A stretch of 41,174 nt of DNA, from positions 1 through 41,174 of the forward strand of contig JAFVGZ010000019.1 of assembly GCA_017478025.1 (NCBI GenBank), in the 5' to 3' direction. The notes under the pieces are model-generated. The model was given only the letters and a program-made list of their open reading frames with translations. It was not told the DNA's origin and did no database searches. The position numbers were made by a program, and so were the translations under genes. The DNA is from Prevotella sp. GTDB taxonomy: Bacteria; Bacteroidota; Bacteroidia; Bacteroidales; Bacteroidaceae. Below, piece after piece: positions 17,698 through 39,413 of the stretch (positions are counted from its first letter, which is position 1; every line of letters starts with the position of its first letter).

Positions 17698-17719
17698 ATA
17701 ATGCATGGATGCTATGCTT

Positions 17720-17990
17720 GCAAATGAGGTTTGCCGCTGGCAATTAATAGGGAATGGGGTGTGAGTCCCCAACTGTCCCGCAGCTGTGATTCTCCTTTAT
17801 TGCTCTACTCCCTCGCTGTTTGCACTGAGGATGCGTTACTCCCATTGCGACAGATGATGTCACTGGTGGCTCAGCCCACTGGGAAGACTGGGGAGCGGAC
17901 GAGCCGGAGAAGAGTCAGAAGACCTGCCTCTGCGATGGTGACGGGCTGTTACATGGCCTGAGTTGTCGTTTCAGAAAGATAGATTATCTT
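17720..17990 (+). promoter_or_regulatory. Cobalamin (B12) riboswitch
   Basis: Conserved blocks of the AdoCbl riboswitch are visible in order: the AGGGAATGGGGTGTGAGTCC segment with CCCGCAGCTGTGA (17749-17789, B12 box), GCCCACTGGGAAG (17874-17886), GCGGACGAGCCGGAGAAGAG and CAGAAGACCTGCC (17895-17927). It precedes btuB directly, so expression of the transport genes should fall when cobalamin is high. The 3' boundary is approximate; sequence up to 18000 likely forms the expression platform. Confidence 0.92.
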
Positions 17991-24891: not shown

Positions 24892-24978
24892 GCTACTGTC
24901 GTAACACCATATTAAGAATAATGTAAAGACGCGTCAATGCGGGTTAATAATAAGGATTACCCCGCATCAACTCATATG

Positions 24979-25014
24979 TAAACGAGTGCAAAGCGGTTTT
25001 CCCGCTTTTCATCA
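24979..25014. repeat. 36-bp intergenic hairpin repeat, copy 2
   Basis: TAAACGAGTGCAAAGCGG hairpin as in copy 1 (one base different). The region 24892-25045 also holds a weak hairpin at 24937-24967 and no gene. Confidence 0.75.
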
Positions 25015-25045
25015 TCAGTACGAGTGTTAAATGTAAATTTATAAT

Positions 25046-25075
25046 AAAAAGTTTGCAGATAAACTGCAAACTTTT
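25046..25075 (+). terminator. Terminator upstream of the biosynthetic cluster
   Basis: GTTTGCAG (25051-25058) pairs with CTGCAAAC (25064-25071) around a 5-base loop, with flanking A and T tracts; it separates the DUF4230/Dabb genes from the cluster. Confidence 0.8.
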
Positions 25076-25083
25076 GTTGTCTT

Positions 25084-25115
25084 TTTGGTAATGCCAAAAA
25101 AAAGATGTACCTTTG
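25084..25115 (+). promoter_or_regulatory. Promoter of the aryl-polyene-like cluster
   Basis: TTTG at 25084-25087, 20-base spacer, TACCTTTG at 25108-25115, 20 bases before the ATG of the methyltransferase. Confidence 0.8.
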
Positions 25116-25135
25116 CAGTTTAAGAAAGAAGAAAG

Positions 25136-26257
25136 ATGACACTTTTTCCTGAACTAAAGAGAAAATATACAGAGGAACAACTGTCTGCGCGCGAGGCTCA
25201 GCGGCAGGCAGAGTTCATAGCATGGGGCGCAGCTGTGTTCCAAGCCTCTCGCCTTATGGTGAAGTTCGGCATACTCGAACTGTTGCGTAATAACAGGGAG
25301 GGTATGACGGAGGAAGAGGTGTTCCTTGCATTGCAGGAGGACCAGAGGCTCAGCAGCTATGCCGTGAAGTGTCTGCTTGAAGCGGGCCTCTCCATTGGCA
25401 CGGTGCTGATAGACGTTGACACCGATCGCTATACTTTGTCCAAGACAGGCTGGTTCCTGCTTACAGATGAGGCAACCAAGGTGAACATGGACTTCAATCA
25501 CGATGTGAATTACGAGGGCTGGTTCCACCTTGAGGAAGCGTTGCGTGAGGGTAAGCCTGCAGGACTGCGCCACTTTGGTGACTGGCCTACTGTGTATGAG
25601 GGACTGTCATCGTTGCCGGAACAGGTGCAGAAGAGTTGGTTCGCCTTTGACCACTTCTACAGCGACTCGTCTTTCCCCGAGGCTCTTGAGATTGTCTTTA
25701 GAGACCGCAATGTCAGGACGCTCTATGATGTGGGGGGCAATACGGGTAAGTGGGCGTTGCAGTGCGTCGCTTATGATAAGGACGTGACGGTCACTGTGCT
25801 TGACCTGCCGCAGCAGATAGAGCTGATGAGAAAGAACATAGAGGGCAAGCTGGGTGCTGAACGTATAAGTGGTATTGGGATTAACCTGCTGGACCCGCAG
25901 ACGGCCTTTCCCAAATCCGGCGCAGGCAGTCCCGATGCTATATGGATGAGCCAGTTCCTGGATTGCTTTGGCGAAGATGAGATAGTAAGCATTCTTAGCC
26001 GTGCACGAGAGGTGATGGGCGATGGCACTCGCATCTTCATAATGGAGACGCTGTGGGACCGCCAGCGCTTTGAGCCCGCAGCCTTCTGCCTCACTATGAC
26101 AAGCCTCTACTTCGCAGCCATAGCCAACGGCAACAGCAAGATGTATCATAGCGAAGACATGGAGCGCCTCATACGCAAGGCAGGACTCGAGGTTGAGAGT
26201 ATATACGACGGATTGGGGCAGGGACACAGTGTGATTGTAGTGAAAAAACAGGCATAG
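25136..26257 (+). CDS. SAM-dependent methyltransferase (O-methyltransferase family 2 type)
   Basis: 373 residues. N-terminal winged-helix-like dimerisation half (GILELLRNNREGMTEEEV), then the SAM fold: DVGGNTGKW at 198-206 (motif I), VTVLDLPQQ, PDAIWMSQFLDCF and IFIMETLWD. It resembles aromatic/polyene O- or C-methyltransferases. It is the first gene of the cluster and its stop (TAG) directly abuts the ATG of the ACP, so the two are translationally linked. Likely methylates the aromatic head or an ACP-bound intermediate, which is inferred from context. Confidence 0.85.
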   Translation: MTLFPELKRKYTEEQLSAREAQRQAEFIAWGAAVFQASRLMVKFGILELLRNNREGMTEEEVFLALQEDQRLSSYAVKCLLEAGLSIGTVLIDVDTDRYTLSKTGWFLLTDEATKVNMDFNHDVNYEGWFHLEEALREGKPAGLRHFGDWPTVYEGLSSLPEQVQKSWFAFDHFYSDSSFPEALEIVFRDRNVRTLYDVGGNTGKWALQCVAYDKDVTVTVLDLPQQIELMRKNIEGKLGAERISGIGINLLDPQTAFPKSGAGSPDAIWMSQFLDCFGEDEIVSILSRAREVMGDGTRIFIMETLWDRQRFEPAAFCLTMTSLYFAAIANGNSKMYHSEDMERLIRKAGLEVESIYDGLGQGHSVIVVKKQA

Positions 26258-26497
26258 ATGACAAAACAAGAGATAATAGAAAAGATAAATGATTTCCTCA
26301 TAGAGGAATTGGAGATAGACAACGAGAAGGTGGCTCCGACTGCTGACCTGCGCGATGACATAGGCATTGACAGCCTTGACTACGTAGATATAGCGGCTTT
26401 TGTGAAAAAGACCTTCGGCTTCAAAATCCAGTCCGAGGACTTTGAAAAGATAAGAACCCTCGGTGAATTTTATGAATTCTTAGATAGCAAATTATAA
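26258..26497 (+). CDS. Acyl carrier protein 1
   Basis: 79 residues, helical acidic ACP with the phosphopantetheine site GIDSLDYVD (Ser39). No gap to the methyltransferase gene. Likely carries the growing or starter acyl chain for the ketosynthases downstream. Confidence 0.92.
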   Translation: MTKQEIIEKINDFLIEELEIDNEKVAPTADLRDDIGIDSLDYVDIAAFVKKTFGFKIQSEDFEKIRTLGEFYEFLDSKL

Positions 26498-26521
26498 ATC
26501 AGATATAGGCGCCAACAGACA

Positions 26522-27364
26522 ATGGAACGTAACTGGGCAGGGACTACATACGGAAACACATGGATGCACACGTGGTTGATACGCATCTTGCGCTTCATCC
26601 CCATAAGGGCATTGTACGCCTTCGTCTTTCTTTTCGTGGTCCCCGTATGCCTCGTCGTAAATCCTGCCAACCGTATTATCTACCGTTATTTCCGCAGTCG
26701 GTGGGGATATGGGGCCTTAAAATCGGCATTGATGACGTATCGCAATTTCTATCTCTTCGGTCAGGTGGTGGTGGACAGGTTCGCCATGTATGCCGGAAAG
26801 ACATTCGATGTTGAGGTGGAAGGCAAGGAGCATTACGATAAACTCGTGGAACGTCCGGAGGGATTCATGATACTGAGTGCCCACGTAGGTAACTACGAAA
26901 TAGCGGGCTATACCCTAAGAAATGAGCAAAAGCGTCTTAATGCCCTGGTGTTTGCTGGCGAAAAGGCATCGGTGATGCAAAATCGCACCAAGATGTTTGC
27001 AGAGACCAACATCCGCATGATACCTATCCGCACGGATATGTCGCACATCTTTGAGATAAACAACGCCCTTGCAGACGGACAGATAGTGAGTATGCCGGCA
27101 GACCGCATGCTGGGCTCAACAAAGAGTATCACACTGCCTTTCTTGGGCTGTGAGGCGGAGTTCCCCCTGGGGCCGTTTAAGATAGCTGCGGCAAGAAGTG
27201 TCAGCGTGCTTGCCCTGAATGTGATGAAAACCTCTTCCATGAGGTATAAGATATATGTCACACCGTTGTCAGAACCCATGCCTCAGTCATATGTCAGGGA
27301 ACTGGAACGGGTGGTAGGTATGTATCCTGCACAGTGGTATAACTACTTTGAGTTCTGGAAATAA
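26522..27364 (+). CDS. LpxL/HtrB-like lipid acyltransferase
   Basis: 280 residues. One membrane helix near residues 28-45, then the lysophospholipid/lipid A acyltransferase domain with the HxxxxE site AHVGNYE (His121, Glu126), ETNIRMIPIRTD, MPADRMLGSTKSITLPFLG and FKIAAARSVSVL. Aryl-polyene clusters carry an enzyme of this type that is proposed to move the acyl chain from ACP to a lipid-like acceptor. 24 bases after the ACP; 45 before the ketosynthase. Confidence 0.87.
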   Translation: MERNWAGTTYGNTWMHTWLIRILRFIPIRALYAFVFLFVVPVCLVVNPANRIIYRYFRSRWGYGALKSALMTYRNFYLFGQVVVDRFAMYAGKTFDVEVEGKEHYDKLVERPEGFMILSAHVGNYEIAGYTLRNEQKRLNALVFAGEKASVMQNRTKMFAETNIRMIPIRTDMSHIFEINNALADGQIVSMPADRMLGSTKSITLPFLGCEAEFPLGPFKIAAARSVSVLALNVMKTSSMRYKIYVTPLSEPMPQSYVRELERVVGMYPAQWYNYFEFWK

Positions 27365-27409
27365 GGCAGATGCACATACGTGCGATGAAGAACCGATGCT
27401 GATGGTGGG

Positions 27410-28972
27410 ATGAAAATACTCGCAACCAACATACTGTCACCCCTTGGCTCTACTACAGAGGCCAACTACCGTGCCGTGAGGCAGGGCAGGACTGCGTTGG
27501 CCTCCCACGCTGCAGGGATTCGGGGCGTGCCGTTCCCGTTCTGTGCGGCGCTCTTTGCCGATGGCGAGCCTGACTTTGTGAACCTGTGTGTGGAGTCGGC
27601 TACTGAAGCTCTGTACCATGCCCGGATAGATAAACTCAGAACCGTCTTCATCCTTAGTACCACTAAGGGCGTCATTGGACGGAATCCCGGTGACGTGGCA
27701 AAGGAGATTTCCCTCAGGCTGGGCATAGAGAATGAGCCGGTGGTGGTTTGCAATGCCTGTGTGTCAGGAGTGGCAGCCCAGGTGCTCGCCCATAGGCTTC
27801 TCCATAGTGGCATCTATGACTACGCTGTCATAACCGGGGCCGACATACAGGGCCGCTTCATCATCTCCGGATTCCATTCGCTCAAAGCGTTGTCGCCCGT
27901 TCCCTGTAGGCCCTTTGACATAGATTGCAGCGGCTTGAACCTCGGTGAGGCAGCTGCCACGATGGTGGTAGGGAGGGAGGACTGTGCTGGGTCCGGTGAA
28001 GATGCGTGGCACATCACCGCCGGAGCGATATGCAATGATGCCTACCATATAAGCAATCCCCATCCCAAGGCAGAGGGTACATACAGGGTGCTCAATGAAT
28101 TGCTCACTCAGGCCGATGCAACAGAGCTGGCTTGTGTATCTGTCCATGGCACGGGCACCATGTACAACGACCAGATGGAGTCCGTGGCCATAGAGCGCGC
28201 AGCACTCCAACATGTCCCGCTCTCCGCACTGAAGGGGTACTACGGCCACACAATGGGAGCAGCAGGACTGCTTGAGACGATTCTCACAGCAAGGGCCCTC
28301 GACGACGGCATCGTGTTGCCGTCAAAGGGCTTTGAGGAGATGGGCGTGAGTGGCAAAATTAACATATCAGCCAAGTATATCACAACAAGCCAGCGGTCGT
28401 TCCTGAAGATTATCTCAGGTTTCGGAGGAGTGAACGCAGGAGTGGCGGTGACAAGGAAAGACGCTCCCGCCCCCGCGCCCTCCGCTCCCGCCCCCGTGCC
28501 CCGCTCCCTTCGTTCATTGCGTTGCGATTTTATCGCAACACCCTCCCTCACAAGCCAGAGCAGGCTCCCGTTAGTGCGCAATGCAGTTTCCAGGGTTGTG
28601 ATATCTGAAATTGACAGGCTGAGGGAACAAGGCGGTTTCCACGGCCCGATGCACATAGTGTTGTTCAATATGACCTCGACTGCGATCGTTGACAAGGAGT
28701 TCTTGGAAACTATCTCCGATAATGACGCGTACTACCCCAGCCCCTCCCTCTTTGTCTATACCCTGCCAAACATTGTGACCGGTGAGGTGGCAATGAGATA
28801 TGGATGGCAAGTGGAGACAGCATTCTATGTGCTCAGGGAACGGAATGAGCAGGTGATACATCAGATAGTGACCGCAACGGCCCATGCTCACCCCGGCGAA
28901 AGGATACTCTATGGCTGGGTGGATAGACCTGAAAAGGAGAAGATAGAACTTGAATTAAATATTAAAGAATAA
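27410..28972 (+). CDS. Beta-ketoacyl synthase 1 with C-terminal KS-like domain
   Basis: 520 residues. KAS domain with Cys117 (CNACVSG), His246 (VHGTGT) and His280 (YYGHTMGAAG), so the catalytic triad is intact. After a Pro/Ala linker (residues 350-366, DAPAPAPSAPAP) comes a second half (about 370-510) containing FNMTSTAIVDKEF, SPSLFVYTLPNIVTGEVAMRYGW and ILYGWVD, which looks like the truncated ketoacyl-synthase N-terminal domain (PF13723 type) seen as a separate protein in other aryl-polyene clusters. The fusion is notable. Linker DNA contains a 7-bp hairpin at 28521-28539. Confidence 0.87.
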   Translation: MKILATNILSPLGSTTEANYRAVRQGRTALASHAAGIRGVPFPFCAALFADGEPDFVNLCVESATEALYHARIDKLRTVFILSTTKGVIGRNPGDVAKEISLRLGIENEPVVVCNACVSGVAAQVLAHRLLHSGIYDYAVITGADIQGRFIISGFHSLKALSPVPCRPFDIDCSGLNLGEAAATMVVGREDCAGSGEDAWHITAGAICNDAYHISNPHPKAEGTYRVLNELLTQADATELACVSVHGTGTMYNDQMESVAIERAALQHVPLSALKGYYGHTMGAAGLLETILTARALDDGIVLPSKGFEEMGVSGKINISAKYITTSQRSFLKIISGFGGVNAGVAVTRKDAPAPAPSAPAPVPRSLRSLRCDFIATPSLTSQSRLPLVRNAVSRVVISEIDRLREQGGFHGPMHIVLFNMTSTAIVDKEFLETISDNDAYYPSPSLFVYTLPNIVTGEVAMRYGWQVETAFYVLRERNEQVIHQIVTATAHAHPGERILYGWVDRPEKEKIELELNIKE

Positions 28973-28974
28973 TA

Positions 28975-29232
28975 ATGGATAATTTGATAAACCAGATTAA
29001 AGTGGAACTGATAAAGGCTTTGCACCTGGATGGTATGAAGCCTGAAGACCTTGATGCCGATGCCCCGCTGTTCGGCGAGGGCGGCATAGGCCTTGATTCG
29101 ATTGACGCTCTTGAGATCATTGTGATGCTCGAGAAGAACTACGGCATACGCCTCAGCAATGTCACCGAAGGCAAAGCTATATTCAAAAGCATAAGGAGCA
29201 TAGCAGAATACGTTAAGGAGCACAAATCCTAA
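28975..29232 (+). CDS. Acyl carrier protein 2
   Basis: 85 residues, phosphopantetheine site IGLDSIDALE (Ser42). 2 bases after ketosynthase 1 and 6 before ketosynthase 2, so translation is coupled. Confidence 0.92.
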   Translation: MDNLINQIKVELIKALHLDGMKPEDLDADAPLFGEGGIGLDSIDALEIIVMLEKNYGIRLSNVTEGKAIFKSIRSIAEYVKEHKS

Positions 29233-29238
29233 TAGCAA

Positions 29239-30993
29239 GTGATATCAGTAACAGGCATAGGCATCATCTCTGCCATAGGCAATAACACAACAGAGACTGT
29301 GACTTCATTGCGCCAGGGGCGCAGTGGCATCGGTGAGGTGTGCTATCTCAATACCGTCCACCATTCCCTCCCCGTAGGCGAGGTTAAGATGTCCAACGAC
29401 CAGTTGAGAACTCTCCTCCACATCCCCGCAGGCACCTTCGCAAGCCGCACAACGCTGCTGGGTGTTCATGCACTGCGTCAGGCAATGGCCGATGCAGGGC
29501 TGAGTGCCGAGGAGATAAGCGCAAGGCGCGCCGTGCTGATCTCCGGCACCACGGTGGGGGATATGGACGTCGTGGGGCACAGCGATGTCATTCCTCAGTG
29601 GTCCCTGGGCAGGGAAACGCGTGATATGGCGACCCTCTGTGGCCTGGATGTGGAGGTCTGTACCGTCAGTACCGCCTGCTCCTCCTCCCTCAATGCCATT
29701 ATCCTTGGGTGTGAGATGCTCCGCAATGGTGAGGCAGACATTGTGATAGCAGGTGGCACAGAGGCCCTGTCGCTGCTCCACTTCAACGGCTTCAGGTCCC
29801 TGATGATTCTCGACAGCCATCCCTGTCGTCCGTTCGATGCTACGCGTGCCGGGCTGAACCTCGGCGAGGGGGCCGCCTATGTAGTGCTACAAAGGTCCTC
29901 GGAGGCGGGACATACGCGGGCGTTCATCAAAGGTTACGCCAACCGTTGTGACGCTTTTCATCAGACGGCAACGTCTGACAATGGCGAGGGAGCATACCTC
30001 GCCATGACGGGAGCCCTGCGTATGGCGGGGCTGCAGCCTGCTGACATTGACTACGTGAACGCCCATGGCACCGCAACGCCCGACAACGACCTCAGTGAGA
30101 GCCGAGCCCTGAGAAGGGTGTATGGTGAGCTTGCCATACCAATATCCAGCACCAAAGGCATGACAGGACACACTACATCGGCATCCGGCAGCATAGAGAC
30201 AGTGCTCTGCATACTGGCAATGGAGAATGGTTTCATCCCCCAAAACGTGGGATGGCATGAGCCTATGAACGAAGGCATCCTGCCTTATGTGGGAAAAGAC
30301 AAGGCCAGCCTGCAGCATGTCATGTGTAACGCGTTTGGCTTTGGAGGAAATGATAGCAGCCTGGTGATTGGCAGGAGCGGAGAGGAAGTAACCCTGCGGA
30401 AAACCGCAGGGCACAGTGGCAGAGGAGAGGCTGATGAGCACGGTGGCAGAGATGAGGCTGATGAGCACGGTGGCAAGACTTGCGGGGAAACCGCAAGGCA
30501 CTCGGTGGGGGAGATTGTCAGTGATGTTACAATTGACAATGTGGAGCAATTGAAGGACGTGGGAGCATTTATCCCTCCTATGGCGGCACGAAGAATGTGT
30601 AAGCTTATGAAGGCTGCGATGCTGACATCGCTCAGGGCTTTGCGCGAAAGTGGGTTGGAAACGCCTGATGCTATCGTCACGGCAACGGCGTATGGCATGA
30701 GGGAGAATAGTGTGAAGATGCTAAGCGACCTGCTGGAGTATGGTGAAGAGACGATGAGTCCCACGCTGTTCATGCAGTCCACGCATAACACTATTGGCAG
30801 TGCTATTGCAATACAAACAAAGTGTCACGGCTATAATATCACTTACACCCAAGGTGATAAGTCCCTTGATTGGGCTTTGCGAGATGCCCGCAGGCTTATT
30901 TCCACGGGACAGGCAGAAAATGTATTGGTGGGATGGCACGATGAAACTGATGATGGGGGGATATTCTCTCGTAGCCTGATATTGAGGAAATGA
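29239..30993 (+). CDS. Beta-ketoacyl synthase 2 with C-terminal KS-like domain
   Basis: 584 residues, GTG start. Triad Cys147 (TACSSS), His276 (NAHGTAT) and His311 (GMTGHTTSASG) intact. Residues 380-428 are a low-complexity Gly/Glu/His linker encoded by a 27-base tandem duplication between two hairpins. Residues about 430-575 form a second domain with TATAYGMRENSVKML, PTLFMQSTHNTIGSAIA, YTQGDKSLDWALRDARRLI and VLVGWHDE, similar in layout to the end of ketosynthase 1. It is FabF-like in the first half. The end overlaps the next gene by 4 bases. Confidence 0.87.
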   Translation: MISVTGIGIISAIGNNTTETVTSLRQGRSGIGEVCYLNTVHHSLPVGEVKMSNDQLRTLLHIPAGTFASRTTLLGVHALRQAMADAGLSAEEISARRAVLISGTTVGDMDVVGHSDVIPQWSLGRETRDMATLCGLDVEVCTVSTACSSSLNAIILGCEMLRNGEADIVIAGGTEALSLLHFNGFRSLMILDSHPCRPFDATRAGLNLGEGAAYVVLQRSSEAGHTRAFIKGYANRCDAFHQTATSDNGEGAYLAMTGALRMAGLQPADIDYVNAHGTATPDNDLSESRALRRVYGELAIPISSTKGMTGHTTSASGSIETVLCILAMENGFIPQNVGWHEPMNEGILPYVGKDKASLQHVMCNAFGFGGNDSSLVIGRSGEEVTLRKTAGHSGRGEADEHGGRDEADEHGGKTCGETARHSVGEIVSDVTIDNVEQLKDVGAFIPPMAARRMCKLMKAAMLTSLRALRESGLETPDAIVTATAYGMRENSVKMLSDLLEYGEETMSPTLFMQSTHNTIGSAIAIQTKCHGYNITYTQGDKSLDWALRDARRLISTGQAENVLVGWHDETDDGGIFSRSLILRK

Positions 30994-31367
30994 TAGATAT
31001 GTCGATGAATAATTTGACGCTTCTCATATTGGCATTATTGCAGAGCGCCTTGCTCGCTATGGGACAAGTACTGCTGAAGTTCGGCCTGATGCGTACGTCG
31101 CCTTTTGGCTGGAACCGTGCATTCTGGCACTCTTTGGCAGCAAATCTGCCTCTGGCACTCTCTGGATTAAGTTTTCTTGCCGCCAGTCTGCTGTGGATAT
31201 TCATAATAAAACACTTCCCATTGAGCACAGCGTATCCGCTGGTATCGCTGTCGTATGTGTTTGGCATGATTGCTGCGATCGTATTCTTTCATGAGACGGT
31301 GGATATTGCAAAGTGGCTTGGTGTGTTGCTGATAATGACGGGATGCTTCTTGATATTGAGAAATTAA
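30990..31367 (+). CDS. EamA/SMR-type membrane protein
   Basis: 125 residues with four hydrophobic segments and an EamA/SMR-like start (LLILALLQSALLAMGQVLLKFGLM) and end (WLGVLLIMTGCFLILRN). Members such as ArnE/ArnF translocate lipid-linked sugars; in this cluster it could flip a lipid-linked intermediate. The ATGA overlap couples it to ketosynthase 2. ATG codons at 30990 and 31002 are both possible starts. Confidence 0.8.
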   Translation: MIDMSMNNLTLLILALLQSALLAMGQVLLKFGLMRTSPFGWNRAFWHSLAANLPLALSGLSFLAASLLWIFIIKHFPLSTAYPLVSLSYVFGMIAAIVFFHETVDIAKWLGVLLIMTGCFLILRN

Positions 31368-31381
31368 CGAGGAACGGATAT

Positions 31382-31861
31382 ATGATGCATAGACTTGTTA
31401 CTGTTATATTCATGCTCTTAATCACGCTATGTGCTCCTGCTCAAAGCCTGAAGGCAGACTTTGTGCAGACGCGGTATGTGAGAATGCTCAACGAGAAGAC
31501 GGTGGCTAAGGGTAGGCTTGAAGTGAGCGGTCAGATGGTAAGGTGGGAATATACCTCGCCGTTTGCCTGTGTCGTTCTCATAAACAAAGACCGTGTCACC
31601 ATAAACCGTGACGGGAAACAGCAGACCATAGACACAGGCAACAACGGAATGATGAGGGCGTTGTCACGGTTGTTCAGTAAGAGCATAGCAGTACAGGGGA
31701 AGAAAGGCGCGACAAATGAGTTGGCTGTCCCCAAAGACATGAAGCAGATGTACAGCAGAATAACTGTGCACTATAGTAGCAAGACCGGAGTCGCAGACAG
31801 GGTAACGCTATACGAGACAGAAGGAGACAGGACAGAGATAGAACTGAAACCTCACCCCTAA
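31382..31861 (+). CDS. LolA-like outer-membrane lipoprotein carrier
   Basis: 159 residues from the ATG at 31382; an upstream in-frame ATG at 31313 lies inside the previous gene and would bury the signal peptide. Signal: RLVTVIFMLLITLCAPAQS. Then LKADFVQTRYVRML, ARKLEVSGQMVRWEY-type strands and VLINKDRVTINRDG. This matches LolA-like periplasmic carriers found in aryl-polyene clusters, where they are thought to carry the product to the outer membrane. A hairpin (31862-31882) follows. Confidence 0.83.
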   Translation: MMHRLVTVIFMLLITLCAPAQSLKADFVQTRYVRMLNEKTVAKGRLEVSGQMVRWEYTSPFACVVLINKDRVTINRDGKQQTIDTGNNGMMRALSRLFSKSIAVQGKKGATNELAVPKDMKQMYSRITVHYSSKTGVADRVTLYETEGDRTEIELKPHP

Positions 31862-31882
31862 CCCCTCTCCAAAGGCGAGGGG
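31862..31882. repeat. Short GC-rich hairpin repeat
   Basis: CCCCTC (31862-31867) pairs with GAGGGG (31877-31882). It begins right after the LolA-like stop codon and looks like a small repeat common in such genomes; no T tract. Confidence 0.45.
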
Positions 31883-31917
31883 AGATGAGTGAAGAAATTA
31901 AGAGCGAAAAGTGAAGT

Positions 31918-33420
31918 ATGTGCTGTTATAAGAAAGATCGAGTTCAGGATTATTGCGAGAGTTACGTTAAGTCTTTGACTTGCGTTATTATTCCTACATA
32001 CAATAATGCCTCCACCATACGCGATGTGGTGGAGAGGACGTTGGCGCAGAATATCGACGTGATAGTTGTAAACGATGGCAGCACAGATAATACAAGGGAG
32101 ATATTACAGGGAATAGCCGGCATTGATGTCATCAATCTATCGAGAAACTCAGGAAAGGGTAGCGCTCTGATGGCTGGATTCAAGGAGGCAAGGGCGCGAG
32201 GGTATCGTTATGCTATTACCCTTGATGCCGATGGTCAGCATTATCCAGAGGATATTCCCATGATGCTCGATGCGAGTTTACGTAATCCTGATGCCATTAT
32301 AGTCGGCATGAGGACCGGGCTTGATGGGGTGGAGCGCTCGGGCGGGAGCCGATTTGCCAATGCGTTCAGCAATTTCTGGTTTGCCGTGCAGACCTTTCGC
32401 CGGCTCCGCGATACCCAGTCTGGCTACAGGCTCTATCCTTTGAAATCTGTGTTGAGATATGCCACTTCGCGTTATGAGGCAGAATTGGAATTGCTCGTAT
32501 TCGCTTCATGGCATGGTGTGGATATCGTTGAGCAGCCTGTCAGGGTGTATTATCCTCCCGCAGAGGAGAGAGTGACACATTTCCGACCCGTGAGAGACTT
32601 CATGCGCATCACGGTCCTCAACACCTGTCTGTGTGTGCTTGCAGTAGTATATGCTTTGCCGCTTGCATGTCTCAGGTGGCTGCGTACATTTGTCTATACA
32701 CTCTATTCCCTGTTGTTCTTCCTGTTTTGGTGCATAGCCTTGTTGATACCCGCTTCGATACTCTTGCCTATGATAATCAGAGACAAGGCCAAATGTACGT
32801 GGGCGGTTCACCGGGTACTCCATTTTGTTGGTAGGGTTATTATGGACTGGCATGGGATACCTGGCGTGAAATGCCGCCAATACAATCCCGATAACGAAAC
32901 GTATTCCAAGCCTGCAATGGTAATCTGCAACCACCAGTCATCGCTCGACCTTATGGCTATATTGGCACAGTCACCCAAGATTGCCATACTGACAAAGGAC
33001 TGGGTGTATAACAATCTGTTCTTTGGCAGCATATTGCGGCGTGGTGAGTACTATCCCGTGTCAGAGGGTATGGAGGTTCTGTTACCCAAGCTCCGCTCGC
33101 TGGTGGAGCGAGGCTACAGCATCATGATGTTTCCTGAGGGGACACGCTCCGCTGACTGCCGCGTACAACGGTTTCATCAGGGTGCCTTTCGTATAGCTCA
33201 GGAATTGAATCTTGACATCCTGCCACTTGTGGTAAGCGAGCCCGGTAGGGTGCTGCCGAAGAATGGACGATACCTGCGTAAGGGTGTGTTCAAAGTGTTT
33301 ACAGGTAAAAGGGTCAGCCCCACCGACTACAACCAATGGGGCGATACGAAGAAGATTGCGTCATGTTTCAGGAAGTATTATATTAATAAGGTAGCCGAAC
33401 TAAGAATCGGCAAGTCATAA
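31918..33420 (+). CDS. Glycosyltransferase 2 - PlsC-type acyltransferase fusion
   Basis: 500 residues. Residues 20-220: GT2 domain with CVIIPTYNN, NDGST (52-56) and LDADGQHYP (DxD at 103-105), resembling dolichyl-phosphate-mannose-synthase-like enzymes. Residues 230-285 hold one or two membrane segments. Residues 305-480 are a PlsC-like LPLAT with CNHQSSLD (His339, Asp344) and FPEGTRS (405-411). This exact fusion type is a known member of aryl-polyene clusters, where it is proposed to attach the polyene to a sugar or lipid at the inner membrane. Substrate here unknown. Confidence 0.9.
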   Translation: MCCYKKDRVQDYCESYVKSLTCVIIPTYNNASTIRDVVERTLAQNIDVIVVNDGSTDNTREILQGIAGIDVINLSRNSGKGSALMAGFKEARARGYRYAITLDADGQHYPEDIPMMLDASLRNPDAIIVGMRTGLDGVERSGGSRFANAFSNFWFAVQTFRRLRDTQSGYRLYPLKSVLRYATSRYEAELELLVFASWHGVDIVEQPVRVYYPPAEERVTHFRPVRDFMRITVLNTCLCVLAVVYALPLACLRWLRTFVYTLYSLLFFLFWCIALLIPASILLPMIIRDKAKCTWAVHRVLHFVGRVIMDWHGIPGVKCRQYNPDNETYSKPAMVICNHQSSLDLMAILAQSPKIAILTKDWVYNNLFFGSILRRGEYYPVSEGMEVLLPKLRSLVERGYSIMMFPEGTRSADCRVQRFHQGAFRIAQELNLDILPLVVSEPGRVLPKNGRYLRKGVFKVFTGKRVSPTDYNQWGDTKKIASCFRKYYINKVAELRIGKS

Positions 33421-33430
33421 ACCAACGCCT

Positions 33431-34339
33431 GTGCGTAAACTCATCACAACATATTACCTGCTCCTGTGCGTCATCTTCTCACATGCACAGACCATACGCC
33501 TGTGGGATGGCACTAAGGTTAAGGCCAAGAGTGTCACGCTGACAGCATACATCCCCGATAGTTGCGCCACCGAGACAGCTGTGATTATATGTCCCGGAGG
33601 AAGCTATTGCTGGCACGACCGCGAGACGGAGGGCAGTGACGTGGCTCGCTGGTTGCAGAGCAAGGGCATTGCCGCCTTTGTCCTCAACTACAGAGTGCAG
33701 GGCATTTTCCAATATGTCACACACTCCAGGCTGATAGTACCTGGCAGGCAATACCCTGATATGCTTGAGGATCTGCAGATGGCCATACTCTACGTAAGAA
33801 ACAATGCCGCGCGCTTAGGGGTAAATCAGCACAGGGTAGGCGTGATGGGATTCTCTGCGGGAGGACATCTCGCCATGTTGTCGGCAGAAAGAAGCGAGGA
33901 TAAGTTCCTCCGTCGGAGGGGGATAGATGTCGTGACATCGCTACGGCCTGATTTCGTGGCTCCGATTTACCCCGTGGTGACCATGCAAGGTCGCTATGTC
34001 CATAAGCGTTCGCGAAGGGGATTGTTGGGTGACTACAGGAAATACCGAAAGTCATTGCGCGACTCCCTGTCACTTGAAAATCATGTACCCTCAGACTGCC
34101 CGCCAGTGTTTCTTGTCAACTGTAAGGACGACCCAGTAGTGAAATATCAGAATTCTGAACTGCTTGACTCTGCGCTCTCAGCAAAGGGCATAAGGCATCG
34201 CTACATACAATATGCTACTGGCGGACATGGTTTCGGAGCATCAGACACTAAAGGTACTTCAGAGTGCAGACAATGGAGAGATGAGTTCATACAATGGATA
34301 AAGGGCTTATGGCCTCGCAAGACTGCCTGCAAAACTTGA
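33431..34339 (+). CDS. Secreted alpha/beta-hydrolase (esterase-like)
   Basis: 302 residues, GTG start 10 bases after the previous gene. Signal peptide to about residue 19 (SHAQ). Oxyanion block CPGGSY (54-59), nucleophile GFSAGGH (Ser142), Asp233/234 (KDDP) and His266 (TGGHGFG) give a complete triad. Its fold is that of the BD-FAE/acetyl-esterase family. Possibly trims an acyl ester of the exported product; it might also be an unrelated carbohydrate esterase. Its 3' end is partly duplicated at 34580-34601. Confidence 0.8.
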   Translation: MRKLITTYYLLLCVIFSHAQTIRLWDGTKVKAKSVTLTAYIPDSCATETAVIICPGGSYCWHDRETEGSDVARWLQSKGIAAFVLNYRVQGIFQYVTHSRLIVPGRQYPDMLEDLQMAILYVRNNAARLGVNQHRVGVMGFSAGGHLAMLSAERSEDKFLRRRGIDVVTSLRPDFVAPIYPVVTMQGRYVHKRSRRGLLGDYRKYRKSLRDSLSLENHVPSDCPPVFLVNCKDDPVVKYQNSELLDSALSAKGIRHRYIQYATGGHGFGASDTKGTSECRQWRDEFIQWIKGLWPRKTACKT

Positions 34340-34427
34340 ATAAAATGATTAATACTTTCGTGCAGGAACAAGTGATTTCCACAGTAGAACTACGATTGTC
34401 AACATGCCTGCCATACTACATAAACAA

Positions 34428-34513
34428 GATTACCAAAGGCTGGTAAACCGATTACCAAAGGCTGGTAACCCGATTACCAAGGCTTGGTAACCCGATTACC
34501 AAGGCTTGGTAAT
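34428..34513 (+). repeat. Four tandem 22-bp hairpin units
   Basis: Units GATTACCAA(A)GGC(T)TGGTAA(C/A)CC at 34428, 34450, 34472 and 34494 (last partial). Each is self-complementary: TTACCA pairs with TGGTAA, and in units 3-4 TTACCAA pairs with TTGGTAA. It lies in the only large gap of the cluster (34340-34680), about 170 bases before the exporter gene. A 22-base direct repeat (34323-34344 and 34580-34601, 20/22 identical) brackets it. Nothing else is seen in this gap. Confidence 0.8.
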
Positions 34514-34680
34514 ATCAAAACTCATTCGGTTGGCCGTCTGGGACCCTTGCGTGGCAAAGTGTGGAGCAAGCACTCCTGGCTGCCTGCGGAACTTGAATAA
34601 AGGAACTGTTTTAATACAAGGATATTCTCATCATCAAACACATAATTCACATATACGATTTCTTAAGCAGTCATGCATCG

Positions 34681-37047
34681 GTGCGATGGCTTACGTTGCT
34701 TTGCATGACTGCCGTTATGACGGTCTTAACGCTCGGCCTGTCGTACAAGGAAGACATTTCAGACTTCCTTCCGTTTGACACTCAGGGTCGTGAGGCATTG
34801 GAAGTTTATCAGGATATATCAGGGGCTGACAGGCTGATAGTCATAGCAGAGGGTAAACGTGAGGAACCGGAGAAGTTGGTGGAGGCAATGGAAAATTTCA
34901 CTTCTTCTCTGCCAAAAGGCATAGATGTGACAGCACGGATGGATATGGATGAGATAGCTGGCGTACAGCGGTTCGTGTATGACAATATACCTTATTTTCT
35001 TGACCATGATGATTATGTCAGAATGGACTCAATGCTGAGCCAGCCAGACTTTATAACCAACCAGTTGAGGGAGTCCCGCCAGATGCTGATGTTGCCTACA
35101 GGCGGCTTGTTGTCAGGCAATATGAGTCGTGACCCTTTGAATCTCTTTACACCTGTTGTGTCAGAGATGGCACAGGGCCAGATGCTGACGCATTTTGAGA
35201 CTTACGACGGCTATATCTTCACTCCCGACATGACGCGCGCTGTGGCGCTGATAACATCGCCTTACGGTAATGCCGAGACAGCCAGGAACAGTGCCCTGAT
35301 GGATACGTTACGCATGGCGATAGAGGCCGCAGCCGTGACTGTCCCTGATGTGAAGATGCACGTTACGGGAGGACCGGCAATAGCGGTGGGTAATGCTGAG
35401 CAGATAAGGAGTGATGCAACGATGGCCATTGCGGTGTCATCGCTATTGATTGTCGCATTGTTGCTGTATTACCTTCGACAGTTGAGGCGTATCCTGCTAA
35501 TCGTTCTCGCCATAGCGTGGGGGTGGCTCTTTGCTATGGGAGGAATGGCTCTTGTTCATAGTGAGGTGAGCATCATCGTGTTGGGCTTGGCAAGTGTAAT
35601 AATAGGTATAGCAGTAAACTATCCCTTACACATGGTGGTTCACACCCGCAACGGTATGAGCATGAGAGATGCGCTGCAAGACATAGCTAAGCCATTGCTG
35701 ATAGGAAATATCACAACTGTAGGAGCATTCATGGCGCTCATCCCGCTCGATGCCTCTGCATTGCGAGACCTCGGGCTGTTTGCTTCCTTTCTGCTTGTAG
35801 GCACAATATGTTTTGTGCTGATATGGCTGCCGCAGATTATGCCCACTCGTCTTACTGCCGTAACTGGCGGTTCAAGTTTTGGTGGCAAAAGGATATTGGA
35901 GCGTTTCCCGAAGGGGACAATGGGTCTGGTGGGGGTATTGGTGATTACATCGGTGCTTGGATACTATAGCCTCGGTGTGGAGTTTGATACTGATATGGCT
36001 CATCTCAACTACATGACCGACGCTCAGCGGCGTGATATGGAGTACCTCGACAGCCTGCTCAAAAACAACAAAAGAGCAAATGCCGGTACTCAAACGCTTT
36101 ATGTCGTCTCGTCAGCAAAGACAATAGATGAGGCATTGGACAAACACGCGGAAAAGAAAACGGCTATAGAAAGTCTGGAGAAGGGTAAGAAACACAGTCC
36201 CGTGTTCCGCTTCCTGCCATCGCAGAGAGAACAGCAGCATCGCATTGACATGTGGCGGCAATTTGTCAGTCGCCATCAACAGCAATTCTGCGATGAGTTG
36301 CCACATGTCGCCTTGCGTCTTGGGTTCAGTTCTGAGGCGTTTCAGGAGTTCTCTCATATCATTAATCGTGAGTATGAGACGAGAGACTTTCAATACTTTA
36401 AGCCCCTGACCGCAACAGTCCTGGCAGGGAATATAAGTATCAATCCTAAGCACAACAGATACTCCGTGATAGACAGGGTGGAGGTGAGAAGTGATAGTAT
36501 AGACAATGCGGAAAGAGCTATCTCTGGCAGTTTCAGCGTTAAAAGCATGAACAACGCTCTTGCAAGCACGCTTGCCGATAATTTCAATTATATCGGCATA
36601 GTATGCTCTGCCGTGGTATTCCTCTTCCTATGGCTTTCGTTCCGAAGCTTCAAACTGGCCATTATCAGTTTCCTGCCAATGGTCATAAGCTGGATATGGA
36701 TTCTTGGCATCATGGCTCTGCTCGGCATTAAGTTCAATCTTGTCAATATCATACTCGCTACGTTTATCTTTGGACAAGGGGATGACTACACCATCTTCAT
36801 AACCGAGGGATGCCACCGGGAGAGCTACACAGGCAAACCCGTGTTAGGCGAATACACCGGTAGCATTATGCTTTCAGCCGCAATAATGTTCATTGGCATA
36901 GGCTCTCTTATCTTTGCCAAGCATCCGGCATTGCACTCATTGGCCGAGGTTACCATCATAGGCATGGGGTGCGTGGTGCTCATGGCTAGGGTTATCCCTC
37001 CTATGATATATAATGTGATAATGAAAAAGAAACCAATAAAAGAGTAA
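34681..37047 (+). CDS. MMPL/RND-family exporter
   Basis: 788 residues from the GTG at 34681. The frame is open back to 34615 and encodes a plausible longer start (IYDFLSSHASVRWL), so a rare start codon may be used. Twelve helices in two halves, with periplasmic loops after helix 1 (DISDFLPFD...) and 7. Conserved GDDY (700-703, in FGQGDDYTIF) and GGPAIAVGNAEQI fit MMPL transporters that export lipids. In aryl-polyene clusters a protein of this type is the proposed exporter. The next gene starts 2 bases later. Confidence 0.9.
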   Translation: MRWLTLLCMTAVMTVLTLGLSYKEDISDFLPFDTQGREALEVYQDISGADRLIVIAEGKREEPEKLVEAMENFTSSLPKGIDVTARMDMDEIAGVQRFVYDNIPYFLDHDDYVRMDSMLSQPDFITNQLRESRQMLMLPTGGLLSGNMSRDPLNLFTPVVSEMAQGQMLTHFETYDGYIFTPDMTRAVALITSPYGNAETARNSALMDTLRMAIEAAAVTVPDVKMHVTGGPAIAVGNAEQIRSDATMAIAVSSLLIVALLLYYLRQLRRILLIVLAIAWGWLFAMGGMALVHSEVSIIVLGLASVIIGIAVNYPLHMVVHTRNGMSMRDALQDIAKPLLIGNITTVGAFMALIPLDASALRDLGLFASFLLVGTICFVLIWLPQIMPTRLTAVTGGSSFGGKRILERFPKGTMGLVGVLVITSVLGYYSLGVEFDTDMAHLNYMTDAQRRDMEYLDSLLKNNKRANAGTQTLYVVSSAKTIDEALDKHAEKKTAIESLEKGKKHSPVFRFLPSQREQQHRIDMWRQFVSRHQQQFCDELPHVALRLGFSSEAFQEFSHIINREYETRDFQYFKPLTATVLAGNISINPKHNRYSVIDRVEVRSDSIDNAERAISGSFSVKSMNNALASTLADNFNYIGIVCSAVVFLFLWLSFRSFKLAIISFLPMVISWIWILGIMALLGIKFNLVNIILATFIFGQGDDYTIFITEGCHRESYTGKPVLGEYTGSIMLSAAIMFIGIGSLIFAKHPALHSLAEVTIIGMGCVVLMARVIPPMIYNVIMKKKPIKE

Positions 37048-37049
37048 CA

Positions 37050-37953
37050 ATGGTACGTAAAATTCTTACAACGCTAATTGTATTTTTTACAATGTCCGGC
37101 TCCCTGTATGCGCAGAGCAGGGTGGAGCATGTGTTTTATCAGTCCTCTATCAGCGAAACAGAAGACAAGAGGGCTCTCAACGTTTACCTTCCTGAAGGCT
37201 ATGACAGTACTAAGGAAACAAAATACCCCGTGCTGTATCTGCTTCATGGCAAGGGAGGGGACGAGTATTCGTGGCTTATCATGGGACACATTACGCAGAT
37301 TATGGATAGCCTTATAACAGAGAATAAGGTGAGACCGATGATAGTCGTTATGCCCAACGGTAATGTGGAACAGGGTGCCGCTTCCACTCGGTCTATGATG
37401 GGTAGGATAGAGAGTCATTTCGTCCCTGAAGTGATGGCCTATGTTTGAGACGCACTACCGTACCCTCAACGAGAAATCACATCGCGCCATTGCGGGAATG
37501 AACCTCGGGGGATTACATTCTCTTTTCATCTCAGCAAACAATCCCGACAAGTTTGACTATGTGGGACTGTTTACTCCTCAAACCACTAATGCCTTGTCCA
37601 ACGGCACCATCAATGCCGTGCAGGGCATTTACGATGCAGCGGAGAACCTGCCTTTCTTCGGAGGAAAACTGTCATCCAAGCTGGAACGAAAATACGGTGC
37701 CAAGGAGAATTTCGATGTGTATCGTAACATCGAGGGCAAGCTGAAAGAGCAGTTTGAGATACCGCCACGACTGTATTACATCGCCTGCGACAAGGAGGAT
37801 TATATCAAGAATCTGGTTGACATACACCGTAAGCGACTTGATAACGCAGGCTATAAATATACATACGTGGAGACCATAGGAGAACACTCGTGGGGCGTTT
37901 GGCGCAGATACTTAATAGATTTCCTCAGTAGAACCAACAATTTATCAAAATAA
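37050..37953 (+). pseudogene. Frameshifted esterase-like alpha/beta-hydrolase, nucleophile lost
   Basis: Two overlapping frames (37050-37448 and 37441-37953) join into one 300-residue protein of the esterase family if one T is removed from the TTT at 37444-37446: VMAYV then ETHYRTLNEKSH. The first part has a signal peptide (FFTMSGSLYAQS) and YLLHGKGGDEYSW; the second has IAGMNLGGLHSL, where the family's catalytic Ser (GxSxGG) is Asn. A frameshift plus loss of the nucleophile points to decay. It may be a sequencing error for the frame, but not for the Asn. Confidence 0.8.
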
Positions 37954-37954
37954 T

Positions 37955-38176
37955 ATGAAACAACGTATCAGGCAGATAATGGAAGAGAATCTTCCGTTGG
38001 TTGACGTTGACGCTGACTTCCTTTTTGCCGAACTCAGCTCTCTCGACATCACCAGTCTGATGATGCTCCTCTCCGAAGAGTATCACGTCACCCTCGACTC
38101 CAGTGATGTCACACCCAGGAACTTTCGCTCGCTTGACAGTATTGTGAATATGGTGAAAAGTAAACTGCCTCAATGA
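37955..38176 (+). CDS. Acyl-carrier-protein-like protein 3
   Basis: 73 residues, small and acidic with ACP-like helices. The expected DSL site appears as ELSSLDITSL: Ser29 is in place but the preceding Asp is Ser28. It may be a carrier with altered partner selection or a non-modified relic. It starts 1 base after the broken esterase and overlaps the ligase by 4 bases, so ligase and carrier form a translational pair. Confidence 0.75.
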   Translation: MKQRIRQIMEENLPLVDVDADFLFAELSSLDITSLMMLLSEEYHVTLDSSDVTPRNFRSLDSIVNMVKSKLPQ

Positions 38177-39291
38177 ATATACTGGACTATATACAGAGGC
38201 AGGCCAATAGTACTCCCGACAGAGTGGCGATAGTCTGTTATCACCGTAACTCCGAAAGGCAAAGCACTCTCACCTATGCAGAGGTATATCAGCGAATGGT
38301 GACCGGTGCAGCCCTTCCAATCCCCTTGCTCGGTGACAGGTGGGACGGCGATTTCGTACTCTATACTACTGGTTCTACGGGCAAACCGAAGGCGGTGACT
38401 GTCACACAGCAGACGGTGATGCGCAATTCGCTGAACCTCATCAACGGTCATGGGTACAAGGACCAGCTGCAGTTTATTATTGCCGGTCCAATGGACCATC
38501 TGGGGTGCTGGTCTAAGTTGTTCCCGACACTCATGGTTGGCGGTACCCTGCACATCTTGCCCGACGGAATGAAGGATATGAATGCCTTTTTCCGCGTAAT
38601 GAGCGACACCGGCAAGCGCTACGCTTCCTTCCTGGTTCCCGCAAATCTGAGGATGCTTATTCAGTTTGCCTCAGACCGCCTCCAGTCCCATGCCGGTGTC
38701 ATAGACTTCATAGAGACCGGTGCCGCACCCATGTCCCGAGGCGATATGCTGACGCTCTGCCGACTCTTGCCACACAGCCGCCTCTACAATACCTACGCCT
38801 CAACTGAGGCAGGCATCGTGGCAACCTATAACTACAACGACGGTAAGTGTAAGGCGGCATGCTGCGGAGTGCCGTTCAGCAACGTGGATTTCTCCATCAG
38901 CGACAATGGGCTGATAGCAGGAAGCTCTGATATCGGCTTCCTCGACGAGGACGGCATGCTGCATATCGTGGGCAGGCAAGACGATATTATCAATGTCGGC
39001 GGACTCAAGGTGGCTCCCGCAGAGATCGAAGACGCGGCGATGACCATTGCCGGCATACAGGACTGTATCTGCATTCCACGTCAGCACCCCGTAATGGGAC
39101 AGGTGCCGGAACTGCTCGTCGTGATGCGCACCGGCCACAGTTTTGACAAGCGAACCATTGCAAAGGCGCTCGTTCCTCTGTTGGAGCGTTACAAAATACC
39201 GCAATTCATCATGGATGTTGACCACATTGAGCGGACTTTCAATGGCAAACCAAACAGGTCTTTTTACTCAACTCTCAATTCTCCGAAATGA
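38173..39291 (+). CDS. Compact AMP-forming acyl/aryl ligase
   Basis: 372 residues, far shorter than the usual 500-550 for adenylate-forming enzymes because most of the N-terminal subdomain is missing: the P-loop YTTGSTGKPKA is already at residue 64. Later motifs are intact: YASTEAG, GRQDDIINVGGLKVAP and the C-terminal NGKPNRS with catalytic Lys359. Most likely it activates an acid as acyl-AMP and loads it on ACP 3 or the other ACPs as a starter. Aryl-polyene clusters use such a ligase for 4-hydroxybenzoate; the substrate here is not known. Confidence 0.87.
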   Translation: MNILDYIQRQANSTPDRVAIVCYHRNSERQSTLTYAEVYQRMVTGAALPIPLLGDRWDGDFVLYTTGSTGKPKAVTVTQQTVMRNSLNLINGHGYKDQLQFIIAGPMDHLGCWSKLFPTLMVGGTLHILPDGMKDMNAFFRVMSDTGKRYASFLVPANLRMLIQFASDRLQSHAGVIDFIETGAAPMSRGDMLTLCRLLPHSRLYNTYASTEAGIVATYNYNDGKCKAACCGVPFSNVDFSISDNGLIAGSSDIGFLDEDGMLHIVGRQDDIINVGGLKVAPAEIEDAAMTIAGIQDCICIPRQHPVMGQVPELLVVMRTGHSFDKRTIAKALVPLLERYKIPQFIMDVDHIERTFNGKPNRSFYSTLNSPK

Positions 39292-39337
39292 GGAATGGTA
39301 TTGACAAAGCCTGGTAACATAGCGCTCAATGGCATTT

Positions 39338-39385
39338 AATACCCTTGTTCCTTACCCTGTTTGGCAAAGGAACAAGGGTATTTTG
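39338..39385 (+). terminator. Terminator of the biosynthetic cluster
   Basis: AATACCCTTGTTCCTT (39338-39353) pairs with its complement at 39367-39382 around a 13-base loop, followed by T residues. It closes the transcript after the ligase. Confidence 0.88.
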
Positions 39386-39413
39386 CAAAAAGAATAAAGA
39401 TATTTGGCAAAAG

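Follow-up and report, generated by a model that had tools for sequence, protein, structure and literature searches.

How might a locus that resembles an aryl polyene (APE) cluster make its product when the genes for the reductive steps are missing from it? The question is raised by positions 25136-39291 of a Prevotella contig (C32), a single plus-strand run of APE-type genes. The entire contig of 41,174 bases was analysed and is referred to as the window; it belongs to an assembly of 2.93 Mb in 43 contigs that is 84.7% complete. The window most likely encodes one half of an APE/flexirubin-polyene pathway, for condensation, loading, attachment and export, with the reductive half coded at unlinked places, and, as far as sequence can tell, an APE-type pathway operating from four scattered loci is probable. 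The following genes were assigned to the locus:

25136..26257, plus strand: FlxJ-family methyltransferase (MT); NCBIfam NF053543, 581 bits, cut-off 560
26258..26497, plus strand: acyl carrier protein 1 (ACP1); PF00550, 45.6 bits
26522..27364, plus strand: LpxL-like acyltransferase; PF03279, 51.5 bits
27410..28972, plus strand: ketosynthase 1 (KS1) with a C-terminal extension of about 160-170 residues; PF02801, PF00109
28975..29232, plus strand: acyl carrier protein 2 (ACP2); NF006617, 73.4 bits, cut-off 70
29239..30993, plus strand: ketosynthase 2 (KS2) fused to an ApeC-like chain-length-factor half domain; PF00109, PF02801, PF13723
30990..31367, plus strand: SMR/ArnE-like small membrane transporter; EamA, 35.6 bits; ArnF model, 59.7 bits, under the cut-off of 99
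31313..31861, plus strand: LolA-like carrier; PF03548, 44.6; LolA2_flexi, 92.5 bits, under the cut-off of 125
31918..33420, plus strand: GT2-PlsC fusion, ApeJ-like; PF00535, 111 bits; PF01553, 70 bits
33431..34339, plus strand: BD-FAE-type esterase, with homologues in the clusters of many relatives
34681..37047, plus strand: MMPL exporter, ApeM-like, without ATG, GTG or TTG at the start position expected from relatives
37050..37953, plus strand: PF00756 esterase, in two frames through a one-base frameshift
37955..38176, plus strand: acyl carrier protein 3 (ACP3), with SSL replacing DSL
38173..39291, plus strand: AMP-forming ligase, lacking about 55 residues of the N-terminal domain and a further 26 residues

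The LpxL-like acyltransferase possibly takes the role of ApeD, and the 26-residue gap of the ligase lies near what we take to be motif A6.

Functions absent from the locus

The first-pass annotation of this DNA had described most of this gene content. Its gene families and their arrangement on one strand were confirmed by gene calls and by Pfam and NCBIfam searches, and the entries of its list held, with the two esterases, the C-terminal extensions of the ketosynthases and the shortness of the ligase having been missed. It had also reported no ketoreductase, dehydratase, thioesterase or ammonia-lyase between 25136 and 39291, and the same was found here. No match to the SDR, FabA/ApeI-like, 4HBT or Lyase_aromatic Pfam families was obtained among the locus proteins scanned, and the gaps in which relatives hold the missing genes are too small to accommodate them (45 bp between LpxL and KS1, 56 bp between LolA and the glycosyltransferase, and 10 bp between the glycosyltransferase and the esterase).

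The relatives with names are mainly gut and rumen Prevotella and Prevotellaceae together with other Bacteroidales genome bins. Their gene families were checked with Pfam in G001 and for two genes of G005, and the other relatives were matched to those by tblastn. The fullest clusters of the family run, with some variation, in the following order: the ketoreductase (SDR), a third ketosynthase (KS3), MT, ACP1, LpxL, a first dehydratase-like gene (DH1), the thioesterase (TE), KS1, ACP2 and KS2, continuing with SMR, LolA, DUF3261, a second dehydratase-like gene (DH2), GT2(-PlsC), oxidoreductases, esterase, acyltransferase, MMPL, ACP3 and ligase. In content they correspond to the ape genes of E. coli as tabulated in PMC8253772, plus some extra genes. 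The window genes follow the order of the relatives, in which the SDR, KS3, both dehydratase-like genes, TE, DUF3261 and the oxidoreductases are interleaved. Since relatives keep the same order with the reductive genes inside, the window locus has lost its reductive module. The first half of what the first-pass annotation had named as telling against itself, namely that relatives hold the missing genes within the same locus, thus emerged from this synteny comparison.

The absence of an ammonia-lyase is a different matter. None is entered in the E. coli ape gene table itself (PMC8253772), the genes checked in G001 and G005 included none, and the HAL family (PF00221) was absent from the whole assembly, 84.7% complete, in a search whose control returned matches in 5 of 14 genomes. 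For these reasons it is not considered a sign of loss.

Two other explanations of the absent genes were rejected. Assembly loss at a contig end does not account for them, as the locus is internal and flanked on either side by other genes and tRNAs; moreover, G343, listed as 100% complete, is also reduced, and its sole SDR among the matches listed lies about 249 kb away. A dehydratase hidden in the KS1 extension was likewise discarded, as this extension gave no Pfam match and no PDB match (best chance match E 0.48) and also occurs in relatives with separate dehydratases.

Both ketosynthases retain intact Cys-His-His motifs when their translations are inspected by eye, as had been claimed earlier. 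The extension of KS2 matches PF13723, and the best PDB matches of its profile were 6qsp_B (6.5e-9) and 7f28_A (1.7e-6), the latter presumably from the A. baumannii complex. Judged by its size, chain B of 6qsp is probably ApeC. The entry describes the X. doucetiae ApeO-ApeC complex, whose chain length factor forms a half-size chain of its own (PMC8358021). Matches to complexes of the ApeO-ApeC type identify KS2 as a fused ketosynthase and chain length factor. The KS1 extension matched that of KS2 weakly (hhalign E 6.6e-5, probability 64%).

A promoter ahead of the run, another earlier claim, was recovered in a pattern scan:

25084..25116, plus strand: Bacteroidota-type promoter-like site TTTG-N-TAnnTTTGC, ending 20 bp 5' of the first gene

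We take this pattern to be the Bacteroidota-type consensus. Six such sites occurred in the window against 0.14 expected from shuffles, and the window scan gave no other exact match inside the operon. Elsewhere in the window, a cobalamin riboswitch (77 bits) was located at 17710-17945, 5' of an open frame at 18012. An intergenic repeat precedes the MMPL gene at 34428-34512 and gives 25 additional matches in other parts of this genome.

Candidate counterparts elsewhere in the genome

Genes of the missing classes were found at three other places in the assembly:

C39, about 49025-49756: FlxB-type ketoreductase (SDR); FlxB model, 375 bits, cut-off 340
C1, about 208936-215346: GNAT-KS3b-ACPb-DH1b-DH2b-MMPLb operon with a FabB/ApeR-like ketosynthase, an ACP and two dehydratase-like genes
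C13, about 35267-37981: CrtI-like oxidoreductase, LolA-like protein and thioesterase

The C39 gene stands alone, with no other pathway genes in the 20 kb examined around it. Its assignment as an ordinary FabG was rejected on its 65% identity to cluster SDRs, its passing of the FlxB cut-off and its position in the SDR tree. In that tree, seven solo SDRs (this one and those of G318, G151, G158, G329, G451 and G403) group in a single clade (98/96) that lies within the in-cluster SDRs, and the SDRs adjoining KS3b in G361 and G363 form a separate clade; these support values are rough, as the bootstrap had not settled according to a program warning. Between the solo SDR of this genome and that of G318, dN was 0.006 and dS 0.453, and by this comparison the gene is under purifying selection. 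Read simply, the tree would have the solo SDR leave the cluster once and be retained afterwards.

On C1, KS3b is 54-56% identical to cluster KS3, and its nearest PDB entries are of the FabB type. DH1b and DH2b gave weak scores with the FabZ and ApeI models, all below cut-off, and the same applied to DH1 of the full G001 cluster. The oxidoreductase and thioesterase on C13 share 64 and 77% identity, respectively, with a one-operon version in G451, where the contents of C1 and C13 form a single gene run; in G361 and G363 this run also includes an SDR. In G361 the C1-type operon (GNAT-KS-ACP-DH-MMPL-oxidoreductase, some copies with SDR and TE) brings together relatives of the missing classes, as it does, minus the SDR, in G451. 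No match to the ligase, methyltransferase or GT2-PlsC gene was found in the C1-type operon copies examined.

The first-pass annotation had offered three readings, of which supply of the missing steps by distant genes gained support at the level of gene presence on C39, C1 and C13, and the search for paralogues that it proposed returned the FlxB-type SDR and dehydratase-like genes, with no HAL (PF00221) in the assembly. Its reading that housekeeping fatty-acid synthesis supplies these steps through FabG and FabZ fared worse. The genome does hold other SDRs (seven matches in all), and such a supply would account for species in which no dehydratase was seen. However, FabG failed to replace ApeQ in the in vitro A. 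baumannii work reported in PMC8041823, a result that favours retention of a dedicated reductase, and a dedicated FlxB-type gene has indeed been retained here. This reading is therefore disfavoured for the ketoreductase and as a whole is considered very improbable.

Reduced loci across the genus

Matches to KS2 were found in 130 of the 398 genus genomes (E to 1e-70), to the SDR in 173 among the matches listed (E to 1e-70), and to the C1-type KS in 114 (E to 1e-160). The locus L123:7937-14347 carries the operon GNAT-KS-ACP-DH-DH-MMPL, and its KS has the same occurrence of 114 of 398. An initial set of 35 genomes had the SDR (E to 1e-50) in all 24 with KS2 and in 0 of the 11 without KS2 or C1-type KS. 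In the larger set with its stricter threshold, the SDR was not among the matches listed in some KS2 genomes (G170, G171).

A total of 56 genus loci were tabulated, 46 of them with enough flank, and the SDR, DH1, TE and DH2 were all absent from 14 of the 46. Two of these (G313 and G506) were removed because the contig carries an SDR 21-22 kb further upstream, in G506 with the reductive half located there, leaving 12 of 46 as reduced. Reduction is not uniform: G343, G345 and G361 retain KS3, G345 also its oxidoreductases, and a second half-cluster of G509 still contains a DH1-like gene. Among named loci, all four genes were missing from 10 of the 67 with enough flank, the named loci being the best 80 of at least 587 and overlapping the genus loci counted above.

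Reduction occurred on several branches. On the KS2 tree the 12 reduced loci need seven changes, at least four of which are forced by well-supported branches. A single origin was rejected, with the KS2 trees requiring at least three changes in one tree or at least four in the other and a single change sufficing in 0% of 200 bootstrap trees.

The C1-type KS was present in 12 of 12 reduced genomes, many of which had been chosen for a dislocated SDR. Linkage was therefore counted over the 111 KS2 genomes with an SDR place among the matches listed, with 19 of the 130 dropped and kinship ignored. The SDR lay more than 26 kb from KS2 or unlinked in 33 of 60 genomes with the C1-type KS against 8 of 51 without it (Fisher p 2.5e-5), and contig ends cut both groups of this count. 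By hand count, the contig extends at least 10 kb upstream of KS2 in 21 of the 33, and in G323, G403, G434, G451 and G508 the contig is cut or nearly so. Among the eight lacking the C1-type KS, those of G465, G476, G468 and G314 are on contigs that end upstream of KS2, a contig-end effect is undecided in G317, G307 and G454, and G347, with 16.5 kb upstream of KS2, looks genuine. A Fisher test on the fetched loci (C1-type KS in 12 of 14 reduced and 20 of 32 other loci; p 0.17) was biased and was not used, as 19 relatives' loci had been chosen for a dislocated SDR (in G170 the SDR was not listed) and G313 and G506 were still counted as reduced.

The pathway also occurs in pieces on different contigs, variously cut, in L192/L120 (G451), L264/L198 (G509) and L265/L197 (G323). 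G323 is listed with 5% contamination, and the presence of two KS2 copies there may reflect mixing. At L263, a GT2-PlsC gene and an esterase of G151 lie on contig C21, and none were found in the main locus of that genome.

Competing readings of the reduced locus

If the dispersed genes do form one pathway, the ligase would load an aryl acid onto an ACP and the protein or proteins combining ketosynthase and chain length factor would extend it, with the C39 reductase and the C1 dehydratases processing every beta-keto step and the LpxL-like, GT2-PlsC, LolA and MMPL proteins attaching and exporting the lipid. We infer that the distant enzymes work on ACPs belonging to the window locus, that the steps follow this order and that the product is a polyene.

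Several observations weigh against this reading. The solo SDR is kept in G318, G158 and G329 (listed completeness 71, 90 and 91%), none of which is among the 130 KS2 matches, and of the 114 genomes with the C1-type KS, 51 have no KS2 match; the solo SDR and the C1-type KS probably have work apart from this locus. No dehydratase was found in the 7-10 kb around the C1-type KS in the reduced genomes G343, G359, G377 and G455; one was found there in G445, G361 and G363 and both in G151. With the assembly 84.7% complete, a further reductive module may be unseen. To the same side belong the signs of decay in the locus (the esterase frameshift, the MMPL gene without its usual start and the extra 26-residue deletion in the ligase) and the state of the site in G318, the closest genome among the matches listed by SDR (99%) and KS3b (98%), with flanks 80-84% identical. 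There, 27 bp separate the Dabb-family gene from the terminator-tRNA-Met stretch, the two boundaries of the locus in the window, and the whole locus is absent:

24892..39405: stretch absent from G318, whose flanks lie 27 bp apart beside tRNA-Met

In G151, a Dabb-family gene is also found 5' of MT, and the genes before it differ from those of the window.

The decay signs in the locus and its absence from the site in G318 would suit a decaying remnant, a former APE cluster that lost its reductive genes first and whose remaining genes are now losing function, and so would the halves and fragments seen among relatives. In opposition to this, the KS and MT frames are intact with their catalytic residues present, and MT passes an equivalog cut-off. 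The codon-position differences of KS2 from G323a were 0.29, 0.22 and 0.66 for positions 1, 2 and 3, with position 2 thus far below position 3, and similar reduced sets are kept in 11 other genus genomes, one genome per species. Decay is accordingly regarded as unlikely.

Somewhat more remote still is a changed product, in which the pair of ketosynthases, without its own reductase and dehydratases, would make an aryl or acyl lipid, either unreduced or hydroxylated, and the old machinery would export it. The SDR, both dehydratases and TE were lost together on several branches, and no dehydratase was seen in the examined stretches of either locus in the four reduced genomes named above. The loader pair also appears to have been altered together: the window, G151, G451 and G509 have a ligase that lacks about 55 residues of its N-terminal domain, and the same four loci carry the SSL-type ACP3, with a full ligase and DSL in 16 other loci (this comparison leaves out the ACP3 of G323). 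Against a changed product, this genome itself has FlxB-type reductase, dehydratase-like and thioesterase genes.

These elements can be combined. Two APE-type lines would share one reducing set, and the ketosynthase-export locus would have shed its module repeatedly where the second operon was present. In some species (G343, G359, G377 and G455) the reduced line would make a new hydroxylated or unreduced aryl lipid, and in the clade of the window it would be loaded by the changed ligase-ACP3 pair. Taken jointly, this scenario is doubtful, and a scattered APE-type pathway remains the preferred explanation.

Measured against the ape gene table (PMC8253772) for the clusters of E. coli CFT073, X. 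doucetiae and A. baumannii, the locus shares the methyltransferase, the ACPs, a ketosynthase with a half-size chain length factor of the ApeO-ApeC type, the acyl-ACP synthetase, the GT2/acyltransferase fusion, the lysophospholipid acyltransferase, the LolA-like protein and the RND exporter. It differs in lacking counterparts of ApeQ, ApeI, ApeP, ApeK, ApeR and ApeN, in the fusion of ketosynthase and chain length factor in KS2, and in its shortened ligase, third ACP and esterases. The three other places in the genome carry the relatives of ApeQ, ApeR, ApeK and the dehydratases (letters assigned by family). Three tests on the locus genes returned no ketoreductase, dehydratases or thioesterase, and as these three defining features of APE clusters fail, the locus was classed as APE-like in its working and not as a complete member. 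The flexirubin polyene cluster of Bacteroidota (FlxB, FlxJ, LolA2, LolB2) is resembled in that MT passes the FlxJ model and the distant, unlinked reductase the FlxB model, but the assembly (84.7% complete) contains no PF00221 ammonia-lyase and the LolA2 model was not passed. The C1-type operon differs from the locus in its occurrence without a KS2 match in the genomes counted above. A search of open-licence papers by their abstract openings found nothing on point, among the entries listed, concerning such dispersal of cluster genes.

In a survey of 8,160 rumen genomes, aryl polyenes ranked second among the cluster classes by frequency, with 2,800 of 14,814 clusters (PMC8241843). Genome mining defines clusters by co-location, and here a widespread type of pathway is apparently distributed over four places, so a product prediction from any single locus would fail. 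Within the genus, loci range by degrees from complete to reduced, which makes it possible to test how clusters break up, whether enzymes are shared and whether products change.

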